A DNA stretch of 44,065 bases from Herbaspirillum lusitanum P6-12 (GTDB lineage: Bacteria > Pseudomonadota > Gammaproteobacteria > Burkholderiales > Burkholderiaceae_D): NCBI RefSeq assembly GCF_000256565.1, contig NZ_AJHH01000577.1, forward strand, positions 1-44,065, written 5' to 3'. Positions 3,565 through 44,065 of the stretch are shown here, one piece after another; position 1 is the stretch's first letter; each line of letters starts with the position of its first letter. Position numbers and translations under genes: made by a program. A model generated the notes under the pieces. It did no database searches, was not told the origin of the DNA, and was given only the letters and a program-made list of their open reading frames with translations.

Positions 3565-4254
3565 CTATTCCTTGATGAACTGATACCCCAGGCGGTAAAC
3601 AGTCTGGATGCAGGATTTGTCGCTGCCGAGCGTAGCGATTTTCTGGCGGATGCTGCTCAGGTGAACATCGATATTGCGGTCGAAGCGCGCCAGCGGACGG
3701 CCCAGGCCTTGCTCCGAAAGATGCTGCTTGCTGACCGGTTTGCCGGCGTTGCGGGCCAGCACTTCAAGCAGGTTGAATTCGCTGCTGGTCAATTCCAGCG
3801 GGCGGCCGGACCAGGTGGCCCGACGTTGCTCGGGCCACATCGACAGCGCGCCCACGGCCAGCGGCGAGTAGGGGCTGTGGTCGGGATTGTCGATCACGGT
3901 GCGGCGCAGGATGGCGCGCACGCGGGCGGTCAGTTCGCGCGGCGTGCACGGCTTGGGAACGTAATCGTCGGCGCCCAGCTCGAGGCCGATGATGCGGTCG
4001 GTGTCGTCGCCCTTGGCGGTCAGCATGAGCACCGGAAGATTGCTCTTGGCGCGGATGCGGCGCAGGGTTTCCAGTCCGTTCAGGCGCGGCATCATGACGT
4101 CGAGGACGACGATGGCGTACTGGCCGGAGAGGGCCTCGACCACGCCGCTTTCGCCGTCGTAGGCGACGCGTACTTCAAACTTCTCCTGCTCGAGGTATTC
4201 CTTGAGCATGTCAACGAGTTCAATGTCGTCGTCTATCAGCAATACTTTGGACAT
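3565..4254 (-). CDS. cpxR: OmpR-family response regulator, CpxR-like
   Basis: A 229-residue two-domain regulator. Receiver domain, residues 1-120: acidic pocket IDDD near residue 7, phospho-acceptor Asp52 in VVLDVMMP, and Lys in DDYVPKP. Winged-helix DNA-binding domain, about 135-225: LELTSSEFNLLEVLARNAGK, then FDRNIDVHLSSIRQKI and a YRLGYQF wing. The segment around HLSEQGLGRPLARFDRNID resembles CpxR closely. I take the ATG at 4254 (MSKVLLIDDD) as the start; an upstream in-frame start at 4302 would add a 16-residue tail unusual for the family. The gene is followed after 2 nt by its kinase. Two perfect GTAAA-N5-GTAAA boxes upstream suggest autoregulation. Confidence 0.9.
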   Translation of the reverse strand: MSKVLLIDDDIELVDMLKEYLEQEKFEVRVAYDGESGVVEALSGQYAIVVLDVMMPRLNGLETLRRIRAKSNLPVLMLTAKGDDTDRIIGLELGADDYVPKPCTPRELTARVRAILRRTVIDNPDHSPYSPLAVGALSMWPEQRRATWSGRPLELTSSEFNLLEVLARNAGKPVSKQHLSEQGLGRPLARFDRNIDVHLSSIRQKIATLGSDKSCIQTVYRLGYQFIKE

Positions 4255-9117: not shown

Positions 9118-9260
9118 GAACCTGTTCGCGCTCTTACTGCGAGGCCATGATCCGGCGTCGGGCGGTGCTCCGAATCCTCATGTACTTAAGTACATTCCGG
9201 TTCGTCCGCTCCGTCCGCCACCGGCTGATGGCCTCTCGCTACAGAGCGCAAACAGGTTCT
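9117..9260. repeat. 144-bp imperfect palindromic repeat element
   Basis: The stretch folds end to end: outer arms AGAACCTGTT (9117-9126) and AACAGGTTCT (9251-9260), then GCGCTCT / AGAGCGC and GAGGCCAT / ATGGCCTC pairs. At the centre is the 16-nt perfect palindrome ATGTACTTAAGTACAT (9180-9195). It begins on the last base of the guaB stop codon. The layout resembles dispersed palindromic (REP/MITE-like) elements that I recall from other betaproteobacteria. Only one copy occurs in this window. Confidence 0.75.
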
Positions 9261-9281
9261 GAGCAAGGTGACGATAGTGAA

Positions 9282-40508: not shown

Positions 40509-40779
40509 TCCCGCTGTCAAGCCCGGGGTGAGGGCGGTTCTCGTCCTTGCCCGCATTCCCCGATTTTTGTTTATTTTCGGTACGCGCCTGCTGTCCCATG
40601 TGGATGGCAGCGTGGTGTTGTCGTGGGGAAATGAATTGTATTTTGTTGTGGTTTCCCACAATATCTAGAGGTATGCCGGTCGGGCATACTTGCGCCCGCA
40701 GCGACTCATGCCGTGTTACATACCTTGCGACGTCGACTGCAGACAGTTTCCTGGATTTCATAATAAACGGAGAACCGCA
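40509..40779. other. Intergenic region upstream of dctA
   Basis: A 270-bp stretch without a supported gene. It holds two inverted repeats (listed separately) and the dctA ribosome binding site ACGGAG before ATG 40780. No clear -10/-35 pair stands out. Confidence 0.6.
40646..40689. promoter_or_regulatory. Two inverted repeats upstream of dctA
   Basis: TTGTGG-TTTC-CCACAA (40646-40661) and GTATGCC-GGTCG-GGCATAC (40671-40689), adjacent perfect dyads about 90-135 bp upstream of the dctA start. They could be operators or RNA hairpins; I cannot tell which. Confidence 0.4.
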
Positions 40780-42072
40780 ATGGCCGCCAAAACGCCGATT
40801 TACAGATCCCTCTACTTCCAGGTACTGGTGGCAATTGCCATCGGCGTGCTGCTGGGCCACTTCTATCCACAGTCGGGCGAGGCGATGAAGCCGTTCGGCG
40901 ACGGCTTCATCAAGCTGATCAAGATGATCATCGCGCCGGTGATTTTCTGCACCGTCGTGCTCGGCATCGCCGGCATGGAAGACATGAAAAAGGTCGGCAA
41001 GACCGGCGGCCTGGCGCTGCTGTACTTTGAAGTCGTCAGCACCCTGGCGCTGATCGTCGGCCTGATCCTGGTCAACGTGCTGCAACCGGGCGCGGGCATG
41101 AACATCGATGCAAGCACGATCGACACCAAGAGCATCGCCGCCTACACCGCACCGGGCAAGATGACCAGCACGACAGACTTCGTGATGAACATCATCCCGA
41201 CCAGCATGTTCGATGCGTTCGCCAAGGGCGACGTGTTGCAGGTGCTGCTGATTTCGGTGCTGTTCGGTTTCGCGCTGCATAAGTTCGGCGGCCGCGGCAC
41301 GCTGGTGTTCGATTTCATCGAAAAAATCTCGCATGTCCTGTTCTCGGTCGTCGGCACGATCATGAAGGCTGCTCCGATCGGCGCATTCGGCGCGATGGCA
41401 TTCACCATCGGCAAGTACGGCGTCGGCTCGCTGCTGTCGCTGGGCAAGCTGATGGGGACGTTCTACCTGACCTGCCTGTTCTTCATCTTCGTCATCCTTG
41501 GCACCATTACGCGACTGCACGGTTTCAGCGTGTGGAAGTTCGTCAAGTACATCAAGGAAGAACTGCTGATCGTGCTGGGCACTTCGTCGTCTGAATCGGT
41601 GCTGCCGCGCATGCTGGCCAAGATGGAAAACCTGGGCGCCAAGAAGACCGTGGTCGGCCTCGTGATTCCGACCGGTTATTCGTTCAACCTGGACGGTACT
41701 GCGATTTACCTGACCATGGCGGCGGTGTTCATCGCCCAGGCGACCAACACGCCGATGACGTTGGTGCAGGAACTGACCTTGCTGGCCGTGCTGCTGCTGA
41801 CTTCCTTCATCGTGCTGGCGGCGACGCTGTCGGCGGTCGGCCATGTGCCGGTTGCGGGCCTGGCGCTGATTCTCGGCATTGACCGCTTCATGTCCGAAGC
41901 GCGCGCGTTGACCAACACCATCGGCAATGGCGTCGCGACCCTGGTCGTGGCGAAGTGGAGCAACGAGCTTGATGAGAAGCGCCTGCATGCCCAGCTCAAC
42001 AATGAGACATCGGAAGAGGCCGACGAGCCGGAAGCGGTCCTGGATCGCACCGAAGCCAAGATCCATCATTGA
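40780..42072 (+). CDS. dctA: C4-dicarboxylate transporter DctA
   Basis: A 430-residue Na+/H+:dicarboxylate symporter (SLC1-like) taking up succinate, fumarate and malate. N-terminal helix [20 protein letters not shown], then [19 protein letters not shown]. The serine-rich re-entrant loop is [13 protein letters not shown]; the substrate motif is [20 protein letters not shown]; the C-terminal [24 protein letters not shown] is typical of DctA. ATG 40780 has an ACGGAG site. The final 268 bp and the following terminator region are repeated immediately downstream. Confidence 0.95.
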
Positions 42073-42133
42073 CGTGGTTGTCGCTCGCTGATGCGGGCGG
42101 CGCAAAAAAAGGCGGCGAGACTAATGGTCTCGC
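41805..42133 (+). repeat. Direct repeat copy 1 (329 bp), dctA 3' end
   Basis: Identical to 42136-42464, offset 331 bp with a 2-nt spacer. It covers the last 268 bp of dctA and the left part of the terminator hairpin. Copy 1 ends inside the hairpin, so its terminator is incomplete. Confidence 0.95.
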
Positions 42134-42135
42134 GG

Positions 42136-42403
42136 CTTCATCGTGCTGGCGGCGACGCTGTCGGCGGTCGGCCATGTGCCGGTTGCGGGCCTGGCGCTGA
42201 TTCTCGGCATTGACCGCTTCATGTCCGAAGCGCGCGCGTTGACCAACACCATCGGCAATGGCGTCGCGACCCTGGTCGTGGCGAAGTGGAGCAACGAGCT
42301 TGATGAGAAGCGCCTGCATGCCCAGCTCAACAATGAGACATCGGAAGAGGCCGACGAGCCGGAAGCGGTCCTGGATCGCACCGAAGCCAAGATCCATCAT
42401 TGA
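42136..42403 (+). pseudogene. dctA: Duplicated 3' fragment of dctA
   Basis: This fragment encodes a second copy of the last ~88 residues of DctA ([20 protein letters not shown]... to IHH), without promoter or start. It is not a functional gene and is probably an assembly duplicate of the dctA end. Confidence 0.85.
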
Positions 42404-42464
42404 CGTGGTTGTCGCTCGCTGATGCGGGCGGCGCAAAAAAAGGCGGCGAGACTAATGGTCTCGC
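42136..42464 (+). repeat. Direct repeat copy 2 (329 bp), dctA 3' end
   Basis: Second copy of 41805-42133. Here the terminator hairpin is complete and runs on into unique sequence. Confidence 0.95.
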
Positions 42465-42476
42465 CGCCTTTTTTAT
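42435..42476 (+). terminator. Intrinsic terminator of dctA (complete copy)
   Basis: Stem GGCGGCGAGAC / GTCTCGCCGCC with a 5-nt loop, flanked by an A run on the left and six T on the right. In copy 1 of the repeat (about 42104-42133) the same hairpin is cut after its right arm begins. Confidence 0.92.
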
Positions 42477-42479
42477 TGT

Positions 42480-42521
42480 CATCGGCCGCACAAAAGAAAA
42501 GACCCATAACGGATGGGGCAC
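42480..42521 (-). terminator. Leftward terminator-like hairpin
   Basis: On the minus strand GACCCGTAACG and CGTTATGGGTC pair (one G-T wobble) around the loop TGCCCCATC, followed by TTTTCTTTTG. It faces the dctA terminator, so it would end a leftward transcript from this gene-free region. TATAAATAAT on the minus strand near 42620-42630 could be that transcript's -10 region. Confidence 0.6.
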
Positions 42522-42689
42522 GTTACGGGTCCGGGTCTCCTCGCAGCCTCTTGAGGACTGGATTTATTTGGACCTATTGTGTGCCGTTTGACGTGATTAG
42601 TCATTCTGCAGTGCAGCATTATTTATAGTGAGGAGAGCGGTGGAATGCGGGTTTGCGCGCAGGTGGCCGAAATTGGCAAACCGAAAAGG

Positions 42690-42724
42690 CAAAAAAAAAG
42701 CCCGCGACCTGACGGTGCGGGCTT
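42690..42724 (-). terminator. Leftward intrinsic terminator (end of candidate sRNA / NRDE transcript)
   Basis: Stem AAGCCCGC / GCGGGCTT with an 11-nt loop, then nine T on the minus strand. It lies about 140 bp past the stop of the leftward NRDE gene. Confidence 0.9.
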
Positions 42725-42785
42725 AAATCCAATTCTTTAAGGAGGAAATTGGAGGAGACAGGTGCAACTTTAATGCTCTGCACAA
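42691..42785 (-). ncRNA. Candidate small RNA with anti-Shine-Dalgarno motifs
   Basis: The minus-strand RNA would fold into three stem-loops. SL1: GTGCA / TGCAC (42779-42783 with 42762-42766). SL2: CCAATT / AATTGG (42747-42752 with 42729-42734), with TCCTCCTT in its loop, matching the 16S anti-SD end. SL3: AAGCCCGC / GCGGGCTT, followed by nine T (terminator). Between SL1 and SL2 is single-stranded CTGTCTCCT. C-rich, anti-SD-bearing loops with a rho-independent end are typical of trans-acting sRNAs such as the CcsR/Cuckoo type. No strong promoter is visible, so it may instead be cut from the 3' UTR of the NRDE transcript. Confidence 0.5.
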
Positions 42786-42861
42786 AAACCATCTACTTTA
42801 TTTCTCAAATATCAGATATGCGTTTTGGTGATAATGCCAGTATTTTCGCCCGAGGCCAGCC

Positions 42862-43603
42862 TTAGCTGGGGCTTTCAGGACGCTCGATTTCCGGTTGGAG
42901 CTTGAGTTTGCAGGGTGATTTCTTTTGTTGCGGCTCGGTGGCCGGGGGCGACTGGCAAGACGTGATCGGATCCGATACGTGCTCACTCAGGACCGGTTCG
43001 CCGACGATGGGTACGCGCACGACCGTGGAAGCGCGGGTGCCATAGTCGGGCGAGCAGATGAAGATGGAGGAGAGGACGCGCTCCCATTCCTGGCTGACGC
43101 CGGTGCTCGGGAGGCGGCAGTCGTTGGCGCGCGTGCTGTCGCTGAGCAGCTCGAAAAAGGTTTCTTCCGGCGCGCCTTGGCACAACAGGCTGGCGAATTG
43201 CGCCTTGGCGCGGGTCAACTTGGGCCATGGCGTGTCGAGCAAGGCATTGGACAGGCCGTAGACGCCATAGCCCAGCGGTTTGCCGTTGCGCGGATCCTCC
43301 TCTCCCTTATTGGAGTACCAGAGCAGGGTTTCGCGATCGCCGACGATCAGGTTGAAGCCGTTGTATTGGCCGGCATCGGCACGGATGTGCTCGACGTATT
43401 GTTCCGGCGTCAATGCGCCCGCCAGATAATCCGACACCAGTTTGCCGCGCGTGGGCGCATCCGGGCGTTTTTCAGTCGGTGCACGCACGTTGGTCAGCGC
43501 CGCGAAACGGCCGTGGCCCTGCCGCCAACGCGTGTGCGCGATTGGCCGCCGCAATCAGCGGCATGCCGGGGATGACTTTCCACGCAAAAATGATCAGGCA
43601 CAT
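42862..43603 (-). pseudogene. NRDE-family protein (TANGO2-like), internally deleted and frameshifted
   Basis: The gene starts at ATG 43603 with MCLIIFAWKVIPGMPLIAA followed by ANR, the beginning of the Asn-Arg-Asp-Glu motif. The sequence then jumps at about 43535-43541: the DE and the following segment up to GRFAALTNVRAP are missing and the frame changes. The rest (42862-43554) is intact: LIVGDRETLLWYSNK, GVYGLSNALLDTPWPKL, and STVVRVPIVGEP, then a basic tail. NRDE/TANGO2 proteins have been linked to heme and lipid handling. The start overlaps the DUF4936 stop by 10 nt. The deletion is probably an assembly fault. Confidence 0.85.
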
Positions 43604-43881
43604 GGTGAAAAATCCAGGAAGTATTCGGTGTGGCGCGGTCCGTCGATCAGTGCGGGCAAGCCGGAGCTTGTGACTGCCGCTTCAAGGACGCTTTCAAAGC
43701 CGTCCGGAGTATCGAGGTAGACCTCCATCCACGTATGCAAGCCGTCCTTGTCCTGCGGCCGTCGCTTCAGTTCGGTGGCGACCTGATACTGCTGCGACAG
43801 GCGTGCTTGCAAGGCGATTGCCTGTTGCTCCAGCTGTGCCGATTTTCCGGCAGGGACGCGGTAGTAAATATAAAGATCCAT
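43594..43881 (-). CDS. DUF4936 family protein
   Basis: A 95-residue protein of unknown function: MDLYIYYRVPAGKSAQLEQQ at the N-terminus, then HTWMEVYLDTPDGFESVL and PRHTEYFLDF. The strand-helix pattern suggests a small ferredoxin-like fold. I recall this family between ygfZ and the NRDE gene in Burkholderiales, as here. Its 3' end overlaps the NRDE start, implying co-translation. Confidence 0.8.
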   Translation of the reverse strand: MDLYIYYRVPAGKSAQLEQQAIALQARLSQQYQVATELKRRPQDKDGLHTWMEVYLDTPDGFESVLEAAVTSSGLPALIDGPRHTEYFLDFSPCA

Positions 43882-43916
43882 CGACGGGCTCCGGTCGCTT
43901 ATGTCGCGGGTGCCGC

Positions 43917-44040
43917 TTACTGCGGGTCCGTCAATTCATACGGCAGCGTCTGCAATTGCAGCGCAGGGCCGTCGACACTGCCCAGATGGATGCTGCCGGA
44001 TTCCGCCGCAGCCAGTTTGATTTCCACCAGGCAGGCCGAA
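43917..44040 (-). CDS. ygfZ: YgfZ/GcvT-like folate-binding protein, C-terminal end (partial)
   Basis: Only the last ~41 codons are present before the window runs into 25 T: ACLVEIKLAAAESGSIHLG, then SVDGPALQLQTLPYELTDPQ. HLG...DGPALQL...LPYEL matches, from recall, the end of YgfZ proteins (folate-dependent Fe-S cluster maintenance), and the next gene is DUF4936, its usual neighbour. The identification rests on a short piece, so it is moderate. Confidence 0.6.
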
Positions 44041-44065
44041 TTTTTTTTTTTTTTTTTTTTTTTTT
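44041..44065. other. Terminal run of 25 T
   Basis: An uninterrupted homopolymer that truncates the ygfZ reading frame. It looks like a sequence-end artefact or gap filler rather than genomic DNA. Confidence 0.8.

Follow-up and report, generated by a model that had tools for sequence, protein, structure and literature searches.

A short minus-strand region beside the NRDE gene of the window (the whole 44,065-nt stretch of Herbaspirillum lusitanum P6-12 DNA analysed here) raises the question of which RNA is encoded there, where it begins and what controls it. In the initial annotation it was described as a structured sRNA candidate with three consecutive stem-loops, ending in a strong terminator, and with two anti-Shine-Dalgarno (anti-SD) motifs.

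The double-hairpin sRNA and its 5' end

The segment 42692–42760 of the minus strand (69 nt) is matched by the Rfam model RF02278 (Betaproteobacteria toxic small RNA, or double-hairpin sRNA) over the full length of the model (1–64), with 58.4 bits against the gathering score of 50 (cmscan, E 2.6e-9). The two hairpins with a CU-rich 5' end and a CU-rich loop, which characterize the family, are present, and membership is almost certain: this is a new member of an already known family. The description as a structured minus-strand sRNA with two anti-SD motifs is upheld by the fold and by conservation in the genus and the order. The RF02278 model scores above the cut-off in 34 of 34 genus genomes (3–13 matches per genome) and in 93 of 250 genomes of the order. 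Among 274 genomes of the class three exceed the cut-off, all of them from the window's own order, and among 14 control genomes none does. The window's genome carries 10 matches at E 0.001 or better, 5 of them above the cut-off. The MmgR model RF00519 matches the window sRNA weakly, with 25.8 bits, and does not reach its cut-off of 41.

Matches to RF02278 below the cut-off (28.7–48.7 bits), some of them tandem arrays, occur in 80 of the 274 class genomes, for example at G296:C3:217943-218301 and G210:C27:1129-1336; they perhaps represent a wider superfamily or terminators that look alike by chance. The window's genome also contains a tandem RF02278-like pair (L007 and L008, C711:4490-4552 and 3855-3917) with the 5' ends CGUCUCCUCC, likewise below the cut-off (45.3 and 35.8 bits).

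Orthologues were found by DNA similarity, not by structure: matches exist in 34 of 34 genus genomes, and the best match was fetched for 30, the window's own included. After exclusion of L069, which is devoid of the NRDE gene, 29 syntenic loci remain in the alignment, the window among them. The sRNA is predicted to fold as two hairpins with a U-tailed terminator at −25.3 kcal/mol (z −4.96), a stability reached by 0 of 200 shuffles. Hairpins and terminator lie on the minus strand; the two plus-strand ribosome-binding sites without a gene behind them are the reverse complements of the anti-SD stretches. The first of these stretches, the 5' UGUCUCCUCC (42751–42760), has the same letters in 29 of 29 loci and is unpaired in the minimum-free-energy structure up to nt 7 (UGUCUCC). 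The second, CCUCCUU, sits in the loop CCUCCUUAAA of hairpin 1 (42728–42753), so that the assignment of one motif to a loop and of the other to a single strand is borne out. All 8 predicted pairs of hairpin 1 are invariant, and both anti-SD stretches and the hairpin are the same in the 29 loci except for one T in the loop. In the strong terminator hairpin with its U-tail (42692–42724), 5 of 11 pairs have changed on both sides, and 99.7% of cells are paired. When the alignment is widened to 40 family loci, which the Rfam model recruited and which are for this reason biased to it, 3 of 5 counted hairpin-1 pairs have two-sided changes.

The first of the three stem-loops (GUGCA..UGCAC, 42762–42783) retains all five pairs in 5 of 29 loci, the window being one of them, and 74.8% of its helix cells are paired, as compared with 100% and 99.7% for the other two helices. 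It is therefore most likely not an RNA stem-loop, which leaves two hairpins; conservation of stems and CCUCC motifs holds for the anti-SD stretches, hairpin 1 and the terminator, not for this stem. The same letters are conserved in the manner of a promoter, with an inferred −10 TAAAGT (42767–42772) invariant in 29 of 29 loci, and the paralogues L003 and L005 have TATAGT at the equivalent position. Because the full stem is so rare and the conserved −10 stands six bases before UGUC, the stretch is most likely a promoter rather than RNA. For the same reason the start of the sRNA is placed at 42760 and not at 42785, and we regard this position as very probable on comparative grounds. A simple sigma-70 scan of 41500–44065 gave no promoter at all, that of the sRNA included, and the promoter calls therefore rest on conservation. 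A sigma-54 promoter was considered for the sRNA and rejected, no −24/−12 pair being visible by eye.

A single three-stem-loop RNA starting near 42785 would find some precedent among the relatives. The window's own sequence does form the first stem when folded; the H. seropedicae sRNAs with RNA-seq support include four RF02278 members, Hsnc059/063/086/107, of 93–115 nt with the Rfam part beginning at nt 25–48 (PMC7011215), and ncS27 of B. cenocepacia measures 92 nt prior to processing (PMC5688073). However, the stem is lost in most loci and the −10 lies at the right distance from UGUC. Moreover, three of the four B. cenocepacia homologues with mapped 5' ends have 57–67 nt, and the fourth, ncS27, is processable to that short form (PMC5688073), whereas the Hsnc lengths come from nocoRNAc predictions supported by RNA-seq, a program that can over-predict length according to the authors themselves (PMC7011215). 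The longer RNA is thus highly improbable, and the start at 42760 is retained below.

Further upstream the element ATATCTGATAT...AATAAAG (42796–42819) is kept across the 29 loci with variation. The pattern CTGMTAT-N6-AATAAAG, built from three RF02278 paralogues (window 42796–42815, L003 and L005), occurs exactly nowhere else in the genome; it may be equivalent to the upstream motif that three of the four Burkholderia copies have in common (PMC5688073, Fig. S3). The NRDE/TANGO2 gene itself (42862–43554, minus strand; PF05742, 132.7 bits) adjoins the sRNA in 29 of 30 fetched loci, in line with the placement of the sRNA downstream of it. The sRNA begins about 100 nt past the NRDE stop on the same strand, and it might be a processed 3' UTR of the NRDE mRNA, like S17S, which is cut out of a longer RNA by RNase E (PMC11722255), or the short ncS27, also a product of processing (PMC5688073). 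Against this origin, which appears very unlikely, the 29 loci show upstream elements conserved as far as about −60. The NRDE/TANGO2 gene appears split over two frames (43472–43603 with the 5' part, and 42862–43554), of which Pfam matches the longer part only; this is perhaps a sequencing indel.

The window sRNA has in common with ncS03, ncS05, ncS27 and ncS62 of B. cenocepacia and with the four Hsnc RNAs of H. seropedicae, as well as with the relative S17 of B. pertussis, the two hairpins, the 5' UGUCUCC, the loop CCUCC, the U-rich terminator and the occurrence of several siblings per genome. It differs from them in its AAUU stem and its degenerate PhaR-like box. Cloned RF02278 RNAs proved toxic to E. 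coli (as told in PMC4603805); S17S leaves exponential growth of E. coli unimpaired, and in Bordetella it directly represses a sigma-54 regulator (PMC11722255). Growth is attenuated by overexpressed ncS27, which also acts on predicted targets in the use of amino acids and carbohydrates, and the predicted ncS27 interactions concentrate on ribosome-binding sites (PMC5688073, PMC10987360). In the available text of these papers direct repression is shown for S17S on one target, and the other targets are predicted or come from overexpression (PMC11722255, PMC5688073, PMC10987360).

A putative complementary RNA downstream of the sRNA

About 120 nt downstream of the sRNA, on the same strand and between the sRNA and the convergent gene dctA (Na+:dicarboxylate symporter, 40690–42072, plus strand; PF00375), lies a second conserved block, absent from the initial annotation and designated here RNA2 (42492–42569). 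It consists, in this order, of the PhaR box TGC-ACT-GCA (42607–42615), a −35-like ATGACT (42599–42604), 17 nt, a −10-like CACAAT (42576–42581), AAAUAAAUCCAGUCCUCAAGAGGCUGCGAGGAGACC and a terminator hairpin with a T-rich tail. Boxes, body and terminator are conserved in 9 of the 29 loci between flanks that cannot be aligned, with TGAC and CACAAT in 9 of 9 such window-type loci; at the remaining 20 loci RNA2 was not found within 700 nt. The RNA2 strand has no match to any Rfam family at E 1. RNA2 is very likely a transcribed RNA.

RNA2 contains 8-nt exact complements to GUCUCCUC and UGGAUUUA of the sRNA, i.e. to both ends of its 5' module, in the right order. The former is provided by GAGGAGAC (42535–42542), invariant in 9 of 9 loci, and the latter includes AAATCCA (42559–42565), as seen in the duplex computation. 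Since both ends of the module are complemented, RNA2 most likely captures double-hairpin sRNAs, and its action as a decoy (sponge) is rather favoured by the sequence comparison. The computed RNA2-sRNA duplex has −29.5 kcal/mol (−29.5 to −31.7 over the nine loci), and none of 1000 dinucleotide shuffles is as good; for the paralogues L005, L001 and L003 the numbers are 0, 1 and 2 of 1000. Seed complementarity is beyond chance by this measure, but if the SD-like GAGGAGACC is retained, 8 of 1000 random contexts equal RNA2 in pairing. Duplex energy alone is weak evidence, because values of −35 kcal/mol or below are reached by GC-rich windows flanking family loci; an energy scan of flanks for antisense partners was for this lack of specificity not used. 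A search of the window for complements of the sRNA 5' seed gave 12 sites at two or fewer mismatches, one of them the sRNA itself, as compared with 7.8 expected; no signal was seen in this.

Recurrence is stronger evidence for RNA2 than duplex energy. BLAST with RNA2 in 116 family genomes returned only the window's own copy. The covariance model R2 (the window RNA2 scores in its models by construction) matches in 13 of 34 genus genomes. Its hits include a second copy in the window's genome, on contig C707 downstream of the paralogue L005, as well as a copy adjacent to an sRNA in each of G006, G008, G013, G015, G016 and G022. Twelve weaker or second R2 matches were inspected, and in five of them the upstream 420 nt contain no sRNA (L217, L218, L219, L226, L227). 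The broader model R3 matches 98 of 195 family genomes at E 0.001 and reaches other genera, with E 2.5e-15 or better in the 12 same-genus genomes listed in this sample. From its matches 28 new loci were fetched, to which checking of its weak tail was confined. At 22 of the 28 the same strand carries an RF02278-like sRNA, with 110 to 282 nt between the two starts. The sRNA lies upstream of RNA2 in Herbaspirillum and G567, downstream in the genus g226 and G700, and on both sides in G710. By cmscan of 19 of the 28 loci (and of L224), RF02278 stands beside RNA2 in 13, of which 9 are above the cut-off and 4 at 46.7–49.8 bits; the other 9 loci, all Herbaspirillum, have sRNAs above the cut-off according to the genus search. 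No sRNA was found within 500 nt at 6 of the 28 loci. Four RNA2-like loci without an sRNA in that range, L306, L307, L308 and L310, of which two carry the PhaR box, are possible trans-acting decoys.

After centring, binding is stronger in cognate RNA2-sRNA pairs than in swapped ones, with a permutation p of 0.0001 over 15 related pairs and of 0.014 over 9 cluster representatives. No more than 1 of 15 rows has its cognate RNA2 as the single best partner; the preference lends modest support to co-evolution of the two RNAs. Among 84,980 species a scan with the RNA2 pattern gave 58 stretches, many of which are reverse complements of RF02278 copies (in Herbaspirillum too) or due to chance. Only those followed by a terminator look RNA2-like by eye, e.g. 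in Duganella, a betaproteobacterial MAG and Herbaspirillum.

The block might also be an independent regulator with a GA-rich seed, or the relic of an inverted copy of the sRNA gene. Its reverse complement does resemble the sRNA module, its SD-like stretch pairs with any anti-SD RNA, and the 6 of 28 loci that stand alone fit such a role. Nevertheless, the promoter-like boxes and the terminator are conserved and read in the RNA2 direction, and a relic would hardly have preserved its complementary blocks both at two paralogous loci and in further genera. The linkage of 22 of 28 loci to RF02278-like sRNAs and the cognate preference also favour the decoy, and we consider the independent regulator or relic unlikely. 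Much less probable still is an RNA-RNA toxin-antitoxin pair. The family is called toxic from growth inhibition of E. coli (PMC4603805) and a complementary RNA does adjoin the sRNA; however, the sRNA is present in all 34 genus genomes searched, in 3–13 matches each, as opposed to at most two clear copies of RNA2 by its model. A decoy encoded next to its own sRNA would add an unusual layer of control, and one that is easy to test. The available text of the papers on the B. cenocepacia, H. seropedicae and B. pertussis relatives mentions no antisense partner, and a literature search, with subscription papers mostly outside its coverage, found no decoy or antisense partner of double-hairpin sRNAs.

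Likely PhaR boxes in the promoters

The regulator of double-hairpin sRNA accumulation was stated to be unknown (PMC5688073). For PhbF, the PHB-sensing repressor PhaR of H. seropedicae, the motif is TG[N]TGC[N]3GCAA, which is footprinted in the promoter of its own gene (PMC3206438), and the motif of S. meliloti PhaR, which represses the sRNA MmgR, is YGCRNYGCR (PMC12542648). The core TGC-N3-GCA was sought within 160 nt upstream of RF02278 loci. It is present at 26 of the 30 order loci and at 26 of the 29 best loci of the genus, as compared with 10–12% of distant windows. Spacings N1 and N6 are also raised (N5 too in the genus), and the other spacings are near background. Box and TANNNT are separated by 13 nt in 17 instances from the order and 26 from the genus.

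PhaR (TIGR01848) is matched in 171 of the same 250 order genomes. The best RF02278 promoter of each of the 93 order genomes above the cut-off was compared with the presence of PhaR (69 with, 24 without), the two tables being joined by hand-copied genome handles. The box is found in 54 of 69 genomes with PhaR and in 4 of 24 without (Fisher 1.3e-7, kinship ignored), where mononucleotide shuffling predicts about 2.1 and 0.6. By family the figures are 16 of 19 and 1 of 9 (p 4e-4, tree ignored); the genomes without PhaR are concentrated in few families, and some of them are incomplete, such as G427 (85%), which carries the box. The inner triplet is RNY in 53 of 54 boxes from genomes with PhaR and in 1 of 4 from those without, and a looser form of the published motif occurs in 63 of 69 and 1 of 24, respectively. 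The strict box is missing in 15 of 69 genomes with PhaR, including all 7 of family f192. In the RNA2 promoters the operator YGC-RNY-GCR is present in 9 of 9 window-type loci, with an RNY inner triplet. The form TGC-N3-GC[AG] followed after 2–3 nt by TGAC is found in 37 of 44 RNA2-like promoters (19 with GCA, the rest with GCG; L217, L218, L219, L226 and L227 left out of the set) and in 0 of 1286 control windows, with an RNY triplet in 37 of 37 boxed promoters.

Control of the RF02278 family by PhaR is likely on this comparative evidence. If true, it would link a widespread Burkholderiales sRNA family to carbon storage, and the operator in 54 of 69 genomes with PhaR names a testable regulator where PMC5688073 has none. 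Alternatively, the box may belong to the −35 region as such or be bound by a regulator other than PhaR: it overlaps the −35 in many promoters, and its correlation with PhaR tracks families, some of which have PhaR without the box. A strict box is also missing directly upstream of the window genome's own phaR gene, although PhbF footprints its own promoter in H. seropedicae (PMC3206438). On the other hand, promoters from genomes without PhaR mostly retain a TTGC-type −35 without the box (judged by eye), the RNY core is present in 53 of 54 boxes, and the same-genus PhbF footprint motif (PMC3206438) and the S. meliloti PhaR motif (PMC12542648) are in agreement. The window's genome encodes PhaR and has the same box upstream of both phasin genes. 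A site foreign to PhaR is therefore rather unlikely. In a literature search with the coverage described above no PhaR control of double-hairpin sRNAs was found either; neither this link nor the RNA2 partner was met there, and the nearest precedent is the rhizobial PhaR-MmgR circuit.

The window sRNA has a degenerate PhaR-like box TGC-N3-GCA (42774–42782, minus strand) overlapping the stem-loop discarded above. TGC and GCA are invariant in 29 of 29 loci, and the inner triplet is RNY in 0 of 29, i.e. the operator YGC-RNY-GCR is absent from this promoter. Since the RNY core is missing in all loci, PhaR control of this particular sRNA is doubtful, and this copy may have escaped it. Two sites in the genome fit the full sRNA-promoter pattern (box, 9–11 nt, TANNNT) exactly, the paralogue L001 being one of them, and the reversed pattern fits 1. 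The other exact match, C177:2415-2444 (L141, L204), could be due to chance, as the reversed pattern also has one.

Proposed circuit and related systems

Taken as a whole, an RF02278 anti-SD sRNA with RNA2 as its decoy, both set by PHB status via PhaR/PhbF, is a probable explanation of the locus. The locus would produce the 69-nt double-hairpin sRNA (42760 to 42692), whose 5' UGUCUCCUCC and loop CCUCC would pair with Shine-Dalgarno regions of mRNAs and lower their translation. By analogy with the relatives the targets would be chiefly genes of carbon and amino-acid uptake and metabolism. RNA2, made from its own promoter-like boxes, would capture double-hairpin sRNAs as a decoy. We infer transcription of RNA2, this capture and PhaR control of both RNAs from sequence comparison. 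In Cupriavidus PHB releases PhaR from DNA (PMC9049629). Without PHB, PhaR would silence the L001-type sRNAs and RNA2; when PHB granules form, PhaR would be drawn off the DNA, the sRNAs would damp further nutrient uptake, and RNA2 would then limit or end their effect. PHB status would in this way set the level of the sRNAs and of their decoy. There is about an even chance that this represents a recurrent two-gene RNA module of Herbaspirillum and its relatives, in which an anti-SD sRNA stands beside a dedicated antisense decoy, with the decoy (and most such sRNAs order-wide) under PhaR, so that the state of carbon storage would govern a global brake on the translation of nutrient-uptake genes and also the release of this brake.

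Sponges such as SroC pair with an sRNA and remove it from its targets, and are mostly derived from mRNA or tRNA precursors. RNA2, in contrast, appears to be a stand-alone gene beside the sRNA, with the box of a regulator. The tandem NmsR sRNAs of Neisseria are likewise neighbouring small RNAs with two CU-rich unpaired stretches, but both NmsRs bear these stretches (PMC5688073), whereas RNA2 is complementary to the window sRNA. MmgR of S. meliloti (RF00519) also has a PhaR link: PhaR (AniA) represses it, as judged from a promoter box and EMSA (PMC12542648). MmgR differs in belonging to Alphaproteobacteria, in its sequence and in acting on phasins, and the available text of that paper mentions no antisense partner (PMC12542648).

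Some further features of the window were observed. dctA is present in 20 of the 30 fetched flanks, in one of them as a 35-aa fragment. Its 3' end is repeated exactly over 300 nt in the window (41805–42104 and 42136–42435, 331 nt apart); among the 20 fetched loci with a dctA match this doubling occurs only here, and it is a recent duplication or an assembly artefact. The contig ends in a run of 25 T (44041–44065), likely an assembly artefact. Finally, positions 9180–9265 give a marginal Rfam match to the Xanthomonas sRNA sX9 (44.8 bits, cut-off 44).
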